Shown here in pieces: positions 34,740 through 36,737 of a stretch of DNA of 64,000 nt (position 1 is its first letter; each line of letters opens with the position of its first letter). The DNA is taken from the NCBI GenBank assembly GCA_016791005.1, contig JAEUNY010000086.1, positions 1-64,000 of the forward strand, written 5' to 3'. The notes under the pieces are model-generated. The model saw only the letters and a program-made list of their open reading frames with translations. It did not search any database and was not told where the DNA came from. The translations under genes and the position numbers were made by a program. The DNA comes from Zoogloeaceae bacterium. GTDB taxonomy: Bacteria > Pseudomonadota > Gammaproteobacteria > Burkholderiales > Rhodocyclaceae.

Positions 34740-34776
34740 TAAAAGAAAACGGCGGGGATACCCCCGCCGCTTTTTT
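34740..34776. terminator. Bidirectional intrinsic terminator after the Tim44-like gene
   Basis: Perfect 8-bp stem CGGCGGGG/CCCCGCCG (34750-34769) with loop ATAC, an A-rich run on the left and a T-run at 34771-34776. It ends the leftward Tim44-like transcript just past its stop and separates it from the cysT promoter. Confidence 0.9.
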
Positions 34777-34798: not shown

Positions 34799-35689
34799 TC
34801 AGGCCGTCTGCTGAATCCCCGCGACCACCCAGCCCTGGTTGCCCTGGACGGGCTTGACCAAATGCCAGACTTCATCGAAATCCGCCGGTGCAGCGCCAGC
34901 GTCCTCCCGCAACAGGCCGTTGAAGCGAACGCTCACGATGTAGCGCCCTGACTCCTCGACGCAGGACAGCACCGTCGCCTGCAGATCCATCACCTCAGTG
35001 TGCTGCACTGCGCCCTGACGCTCGCGGAGGTCCATTTGTAGCTCTGCAAACATCTCGGGTGAGGTGAATTCCCGCAGGTCCGCCAAGTTGCCCGTATCGT
35101 TCGCCGTTTGGAGGCGGAGGAAGTTTACCTTCGCCTGCCGGGCAAACCCCTCGGCATCAAAGCCGGCCGGAAAGGCTGCCGCCGGGGCTGCGCCCATCGC
35201 TAAAGCCGCTCCCTGACCACCGAAGGGCGTCTCAGGGGCGCCCATCCGCGCCATTCCCACGTCGGGCGAAGCACCGCCCGGCCCCGCGCCGGCATAGCTC
35301 AGACCGCTACCGCTCCCCGTCGCAGCCTTCCGCCGGGCGAGGAGACGGAAGATCATGAAGCCCGCCATCACGACGAGGGCAATCAGCATGATGTTGCCGA
35401 ATTCTTCACCAAACCCGAGATGCGAGGCCAGGGCAGCAAGCCCGAGACCCGCGGCCAGACCGGCTACCGGACCAAGCCACCCATTGCGTCGCGGCTGGGC
35501 CGCCGCGGCGGCCGTTGGAGCCGTGGCAGCGCCCGATGTGGCCGTGGGGGCGGTCGCCGGCGAGGTGGGGGTGGTGCTGCGTTGCATGCCCAGGGATTTG
35601 CCGCCCCCCAGGCGCTTGGCTTCGGCGTCCGTAACGCCTACGCCGACACTGAGAATGACCGCACAAACGGCCAGCAGTAACTTTTTCAT
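34799..35689 (-). CDS. Tim44-like domain membrane protein
   Basis: 296 aa. N-terminal signal-like segment (KKLLLAVCAVILSVGVGVTDA), an Ala/Thr/Pro-rich linker (residues about 30-70), two hydrophobic stretches (GWLGPVAGLAAGLGLAALAS and FGNIMLIALVVMAGFMIF), a Gly/Ala-rich linker, then a C-terminal Tim44-like domain (about 175-296: FLRLQTANDTGNLADLREF). The family is widespread in proteobacteria with no settled function. Good ribosome site AAGGAGATGAG before ATG 35689. The leader upstream can form competing hairpins including a terminator. Confidence 0.86.
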   Translation of the reverse strand: MKKLLLAVCAVILSVGVGVTDAEAKRLGGGKSLGMQRSTTPTSPATAPTATSGAATAPTAAAAAQPRRNGWLGPVAGLAAGLGLAALASHLGFGEEFGNIMLIALVVMAGFMIFRLLARRKAATGSGSGLSYAGAGPGGASPDVGMARMGAPETPFGGQGAALAMGAAPAAAFPAGFDAEGFARQAKVNFLRLQTANDTGNLADLREFTSPEMFAELQMDLRERQGAVQHTEVMDLQATVLSCVEESGRYIVSVRFNGLLREDAGAAPADFDEVWHLVKPVQGNQGWVVAGIQQTA

Positions 35690-35713
35690 CCGATCTCATC
35701 TCCTTGAAGACGG

Positions 35714-35794
35714 AAAAAACCCGGTGATGGCCGTCTGTCCCACGCCCATCACCGGAAGGGTGACGGGCAAAATGTACCCGCACATGAAATTCTA
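35714..35794 (-). promoter_or_regulatory. Leader with competing terminator/antiterminator hairpins (attenuator or riboswitch candidate)
   Basis: On the minus strand, a -10-like TAGAAT (35794-35789) is followed by three mutually exclusive pairings. (1) GCGGGT (35781-35776) with GCCCGT (35768-35763). (2) GCCCGTCAC (35768-35760) with GTGATGGGC (35752-35744), 9 bp. (3) CCGGTGATGG (35755-35746) with CCATCACCGG (35730-35721), 10 bp, followed by six U, an intrinsic terminator. Helix 2 uses the 5' arm of helix 3, so it would be an antiterminator. The ATG of the Tim44-like gene is 25 nt past the U-run. It matches no riboswitch class I recognise. Confidence 0.6.
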
Positions 35795-35852
35795 TTGAAG
35801 CTGAATTTATCGTATATTTACTTCCGATTATCCGCACTCCATCCCGCTTGCC

Positions 35853-36737
35853 ATGCAATCCCTCAACTACCGCCACCTTTACTATTTTTGGGTCGCCGCC
35901 AAGGAAGGCGGGATCGCCCGCGCTGCCGAACGCCTCGACATGGCGATCCAGACGGTCAGCACCCAGGTTCGGGAACTGGAACGCCAACTTGGCTACGCCC
36001 TCCTGAAACCCTCTGGCCGGAGCGTGGAACTGACTGAAGCCGGAGCGGCCGCCTTTCGCCTGGCCGAACAGATCTTCCAGTTGGGGGAGCAAATTCCGGC
36101 GGCCGTGCAGAACGCCGCCCAAGCCCAGGGCCAGCGCCTCGCGGTGGGCATCGCGGACAGCCTCCCAAAGCTCGTGGTTCGGCATCTCCTGCAGCCAGCA
36201 GTCGATACGCCCCATTTGCGCCTCTTGTGCCACGAAGATGAATTCGACGATCTTCTCGCGGACCTCGCGCTGCATCGTCTCGACCTCGTCCTGGCGGATC
36301 GTCCAGCCCCGGTGAATCCCAATCTGCGCGTCTTCAGCCACCCCATGGGCAGCGCTTCACTGGCCTGGTACGCCCCCGCCCTGCTCGTTGAGCCGGGACT
36401 CGCCCCATTTCCAGCCTGTCTGGCCCAAATTCCCCTGCTCCTGCCCACCGCCCATTCCGCTGTGCGGGCACGGCTGGATGACTGGTTCGCGCGGCAGGGC
36501 ATCCGCCCCAACGTGGTGGGAGAGTTTGAGGACAGCGCCCTCTTGGCCACCTTCGGCCAGAGTGGATTGGGAGCATTTCCCGCACCCGAGTGGTCGGCGG
36601 AGGAATTGACGGGGCGCCTGGGCCTGACGATCCTGGGACGCAGTCCAGAGGTGGTGGAACACTTTTACGGCATCTCCGCCCACCGGCGCGTCGAACACCC
36701 GGTGGTTCAGCGCCTCCTCGGTGCCGCAACGCCCTAA
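35853..36737 (+). CDS. LysR-type regulator, NhaR-like
   Basis: 294 aa. N-terminal HTH with the NhaR-type opening LNYRHLYYFWVAAKEGG and TVSTQVRELERQLG; effector-binding domain beyond residue 90 (GIADSLPKLVVRHLLQP; VVGEFEDSALLATFG). NhaR proteins respond to Na+/Li+ and control antiporter or adhesin genes; no antiporter gene is here. Divergent from the Tim44-like gene; its stop overlaps that of the convergent hydrolase. Confidence 0.9.
   Translation: MQSLNYRHLYYFWVAAKEGGIARAAERLDMAIQTVSTQVRELERQLGYALLKPSGRSVELTEAGAAAFRLAEQIFQLGEQIPAAVQNAAQAQGQRLAVGIADSLPKLVVRHLLQPAVDTPHLRLLCHEDEFDDLLADLALHRLDLVLADRPAPVNPNLRVFSHPMGSASLAWYAPALLVEPGLAPFPACLAQIPLLLPTAHSAVRARLDDWFARQGIRPNVVGEFEDSALLATFGQSGLGAFPAPEWSAEELTGRLGLTILGRSPEVVEHFYGISAHRRVEHPVVQRLLGAATP

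Follow-up and report, generated by a model that had tools for sequence, protein, structure and literature searches.

A terminator-like hairpin between a predicted NhaR-type promoter and a Tim44-like gene

Does the leader of a bacterial Tim44-like gene carry an RNA switch? The locus that raises this question lies in a 64-kb stretch of DNA (the window), where the Tim44-like gene occupies positions 34799–35689 on the minus strand, with its ATG at 35689 and its identity upheld by a PF04280 profile match (E 9.8e-18), and where a gene for an NhaR-like LysR-type regulator (35853–36737, plus strand; PF00126 and PF03466) diverges from it. A sequence-only reading of the intervening DNA had described three mutually exclusive hairpins on the minus strand: helix 1, GCGGGT (35781–35776) with GCCCGT (35768–35763); helix 2, GCCCGTCAC (35768–35760) with GTGATGGGC (35752–35744), which extends to 11 pairs in DNA; and helix 3, CCGGTGATGG (35755–35746) with CCATCACCGG (35730–35721), followed by TTTTTT (35719–35714) and then the ATG. 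All of these complementary pairs are present, but helix 1 falls within predicted promoter DNA, as does the base of helix 2, and the three-helix switch read by eye falls apart when comparison is used to place the promoter. Our preferred reading, to which we give a probability of roughly 0.55, is an ordinary regulator-activated promoter followed by a leader of ~75 nt with a species-level intrinsic attenuator that would partially terminate transcription.

The promoter and its predicted start

The NCBIfam model nearest to the divergent LysR regulator is NF008284 (transcriptional activator NhaR), matched with an E value of 7.8e-62 and a score of 209 bits, just below the cut-off of 219 bits. In the sister species (L002), a regulator 92% identical to that of the window adjoins the same leader. 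For the promoter comparison we combined the best 30 regulator-subfamily loci from 151 family genomes with three Aromatoleum loci, giving 33 divergent regions that include close relatives and are not 33 independent events. A GCTT-N5-GAA-like box served as the anchor, with the sequence downstream of it unused, and the motif TAnnnT was scanned at 26 offsets. In 25 of the 33 regions, window and sister species included, the motif kept the same distance from the regulator box: it stood at offset 13 in 19 regions and at offset 12 in 6, with at most one region at each of the other 24 offsets. By eye, the offset-12 regions are mostly the same site with a one-base shift of the anchor.

The window promoter reads GCTTCAATAGAA - N13 - TACATT and that of the sister species GCTTCAACCGAA - N13 - TACAGT, so that both have the N13 spacing between box and -10 found in most of the 33 regions. 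On the minus strand, the regulator box GAAGT...GCTTCAATAGAA (35790–35824), a putative operator overlapping the -35 region, recurs in most of these regions and is near-invariant between the window and the sister species. TACATT (35771–35776) is a poor match to sigma-70, and a mechanical sigma-70 scan scored another, upstream site instead (35854–35827), whose -35 hexamer the sister species does not share. We nevertheless take TACATT as the -10 element because the same fixed spacing holds across promoters of the regulator subfamily, including those in front of unrelated downstream genes (HtpX, TerC, and HPF-like). From its position, the Tim44 transcript is predicted to start near 35764 (a G, within 35761–35766).

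This predicted start bears directly on the proposed switch. Helix 1 (35763–35781) lies upstream of it save for its last two bases and overlaps the predicted -10; because the start at about 35764 falls within its 3' end, helix 1 is predicted to be promoter DNA rather than an RNA hairpin. Its maximal length of 7 bp was reached in 178 of 2000 dinucleotide shuffles and is thus unremarkable, and the sister species, the one close relative to turn up, retains just 1 of the 6 pairs. An anti-antiterminator helix is therefore not apparent at this position, and helices 1 and 2 lack the substrate on which they could exclude each other.

Helix 2 (35744–35768) is only partly affected. Counted with the upstream DNA, its 11 bp were matched in 14 of 2000 shuffles and are unusual; when counting begins at the predicted start, 6 bp are left, a length reached in 1079 of 2000. 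The basal half is lost, being located ahead of the predicted start; the part predicted to be transcribed is the inner GUCACC-CUUCC-GGUGAU (35764–35748), with a stability of -6.3 kcal/mol versus -24.6 kcal/mol for helix 3. In the sister species, six contiguous inner pairs are still possible despite two one-sided changes. Folding of successive prefixes from +1 gave the short helix 2 at 20–25 nt and again at 35–40 nt, with helix 3 replacing it once the 3' arm of helix 3 is complete. Hence the proposed competition between helices 2 and 3 comes down to a helix of 6 bp facing a far more stable one; because the inner pairs persist in the sister species, some residual two-state competition may be left.

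The hairpin and its sister-species counterpart

The third hairpin fared better. Helix 3 (35721–35755) comprises 11 contiguous pairs, one of them G-U and 7 of them GC, with inner CGU/ACG pairs and the conserved loop GGGACAG; without the terminal G-U its stability is -24.6 kcal/mol. A length of 11 bp was reached in 22 of 2000 dinucleotide shuffles, which is unusual, and the leader as a whole folds at -45.3 kcal/mol (z -4.0 versus shuffles). The window thus has a stable GC-rich hairpin directly before a U-run (U6, 35714–35719), followed by a Shine-Dalgarno sequence, AAGGAG (35700–35705), that is invariant in the sister species. Within the 64-kb window, which is the scope of these terminator statistics, five sites combine a hairpin and a T-run in this manner, helix 3 among them; the other four include a site directly behind a tRNA and another immediately beyond the Tim44 stop codon. 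By a tail-score formula, the window U-tract scores 5.2, close to the tRNA-side and Tim44-stop sites, and falls to 2.5 in the sister species. At 34746–34773, just 3' of the Tim44 stop codon and 5' of an ABC-transporter permease gene, lies a strong bidirectional terminator-like hairpin.

Homologues of the leader are few. When 61 relatives and 398 genomes of the family were searched at the DNA level, no convincing match emerged beyond the sister species, the one other genome of the genus, where the leader is 77% identical over 142 nt (E 1.7e-23); rows with E values of 0.003–0.01 were rejected as short chance matches. With a covariance model of the leader run against 151 family genomes, only the window and the sister species scored high (106 and 111 bits), the next score being 29 bits. 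Two further weak matches (26–29 bits) were set aside, and one of them (L127) is not a Tim44 leader.

Between the two leaders there are 13 substitutions in 78 aligned positions, 9 of them within helix 3. Eight pairs of helix 3 are unchanged, three have changed in a compensatory manner (A-U to G-C, U-A to C-G, and G-C to A-U), and two are broken. When substitutions were placed at random in simulations, the probability of at least three compensations was 1.6e-4 with changes allowed anywhere in the leader and 0.009 with changes confined to the stem. Helix 3 is probably a selected RNA structure, as judged from the two sequences compared. The loop CGUGGGACAGACGG is invariant in both species, as is everything from CCGUCU to the ATG. 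The U-run region, however, reads GUUUUUUCC in the window and GCCUUUUACC in the sister species, and because U6 is shortened there to CCUUUUA, strong termination is not conserved.

The sequence-only reading is partly supported. A terminator-like hairpin in the leader of a Tim44-like gene stands, on the strength of the PF04280 match and the compensatory changes. An antitermination switch of three RNA helices is not supported: the predicted start, the near-complete loss of helix 1 in the sister species, and the restriction of helix 2 to its inner six pairs all count against it, and a strong terminator would need a longer U-run than the sister species has. That reading had staked itself on conservation of helices 1 and 2 in homologous leaders and on a transcript start no further downstream than 35755; conservation fails for helix 1 but holds for the inner pairs of helix 2, and transcription is predicted to begin slightly upstream of that limit. 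It had also remarked that no known riboswitch was visible, which the Rfam scan bears out: at the gathering score and at E values up to 10 nothing credible was found, the weak matches being on the wrong strand or to human lncRNA. Its further suggestion of a sensing RNA loses ground, as the searches outside the genus turned up no conserved core resembling an aptamer.

Related leaders and rival readings

Beyond the genus of the window (g1), Tim44 leaders of the same regulator group take several forms. The nine g68 (Aromatoleum-like) leaders, L115–L123, have the same promoter and a longer leader with no U-run. Just after the predicted start they carry an invariant GCACC-N4-GGTGC hairpin with a varying loop, and further on a second GC-rich hairpin and then, ahead of the ribosome site, GCGGGACA-N-GGA, which is likewise invariant. 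In genus g35 the Tim44 leader is short and has no obvious hairpin, and other Tim44 leaders of the regulator group lack the U-run, some of them lacking a hairpin as well. Leader structure is common, then, but not uniform, and a terminator belongs to the window species or genus alone.

The regulator subfamily itself extends further. The NhaR-like LysR subfamily box, at its fixed spacing to TAnnnT, was seen at 35790–35853 and at loci L085–L114 before varied divergent genes, namely Tim44-like, HtpX (peptidase M48), TerC/DUF475, and S30AE/HPF-like genes. The subfamily and these targets form a candidate alkali or envelope stress regulon of a betaproteobacterial family, and this by-product of the analysis offers a testable role for bacterial Tim44-like proteins. 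Seven genomes of the order have two full-length Tim44-like genes. By eye there are two Tim44 types, one following a gene with a CHRGYKF-like C-terminus, which we take to be UbiE, and the other beside an NhaR-like regulator.

How might the window leader work? In the mechanism that we prefer, the NhaR-type regulator would bind the box at 35824–35790 and activate the promoter (-10 TACATT at 35776–35771, start about 35764), which would drive the ~75-nt leader of the Tim44-like gene. The nascent RNA would fold helix 3 (+10 to +44), and the hairpin with its U6 would constitutively terminate a fraction of transcripts ~50 nt from the start, the rest being read into the gene. Expression would depend chiefly on the regulator acting at the promoter, and the hairpin would reduce the message, which it may also stabilize. 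What the sequences show is the comparative promoter spacing and the compensatory change in the hairpin stem; the start site, the LysR activation, and the partial termination we infer.

It is possible, though we think it rather unlikely, that the hairpin is instead a structural element of the 5' UTR, stabilizing the message against RNase or acting as a spacer that frees the Shine-Dalgarno sequence, with the U-run incidental. The sister species, in which the stem is kept by compensation while the U-run decays, speaks for such an element, and the g68 leaders have strong hairpins at the same leader position without a U-run. The loop GUGGGACAG is moreover invariant in the two g1 species, and its GGGACA recurs in all nine g68 leaders. 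On the other side, the window hairpin with U6 resembles a good terminator, and only four other such sites exist in 64 kb. A regulated attenuator of two helices, in which a ligand, protein, or small RNA would hold GUCACC/GGUGAU open or closed and so decide whether helix 3 forms, appears quite unlikely. It would account for the conserved 5' arm, for the inner helix 2 pairs that persist in the sister species with both changes also compensated in helix 3, and for the CACC-N4-GGTG hairpin that the g68 leaders keep invariant right behind the predicted start; yet helix 2 is ~18 kcal/mol weaker than helix 3, its 6 bp from the predicted start are commonplace among shuffles (1079/2000), and the leader, found in one genus only (two species compared), shows no aptamer-sized conserved core and no Rfam match. 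Decidedly doubtful is a broader form of regulation, an NhaR-linked Tim44 leader in which the CACC...GGTG hairpin and GGGACA would gate a terminator or a ribosome site under alkali or membrane stress, the output modules differing between the window genus and g68.

Two readings place control at translation or in a protein site. The loop sequence AGACGG (35736–35731) could pair with CCGUCU (35713–35708) before the Shine-Dalgarno sequence to form an H-type pseudoknot, the 6-bp complementarity (35708–35736) being perfect and both strands invariant in the two species; but invariant pairs carry no covariation signal, six matching bases are not very unusual in a stretch of this size, and no counterpart was seen in the g68 leaders, which together make this very improbable. 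GGA motifs in the hairpin loop, at the Shine-Dalgarno sequence, and at the start codon, all three conserved in the sister species, would suit a CsrA/Rsm target. CsrA (PF02599), however, was not found in either genome of the genus (93% and 79% complete) by a search whose controls were positive in E. coli, B. subtilis, and T. maritima, and control of the leader by CsrA is nearly refuted because the protein was not found in the genus.

Comparison with known systems

A Na+ riboswitch (DUF1646 motif, PMC9337991) would suit an NhaR-like physiology, but the window leader has no Rfam match to it or to any riboswitch, and we found no literature linking Tim44-like genes to a riboswitch or to NhaR. The species-level attenuator that we favor is closer to the 5' UTR intrinsic terminators described from 3' end mapping in E. 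coli, with which, as far as that account describes them, it shares a GC-rich hairpin and U-run between promoter and ATG (PMC7815308). Because premature termination in 5' UTRs is reported there to be frequent in bacteria, the leader attenuator would not be a new kind of element. It differs from the terminators so described in that no ligand, leader peptide, or protein site is known for it, that it is defined by sequence only, and that it occurs in a single genus, with a degenerate form in the sister species.

The promoter side invites comparison with NhaR-type LysR systems. Common to both are a divergent gene with LysR domains, here matching NF008284 at 209 of the 219 bits, and a target promoter in which a conserved box overlaps the -35 region at a fixed spacing to the -10. 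The window regulator differs from NhaR proper in scoring below the equivalog cut-off. Its subfamily also appears to serve a different set of genes: the predicted targets are Tim44, HtpX, TerC, and HPF-like genes, whereas the targets named for E. coli NhaR include nhaA, osmC, and pgaA (PMC6307784).
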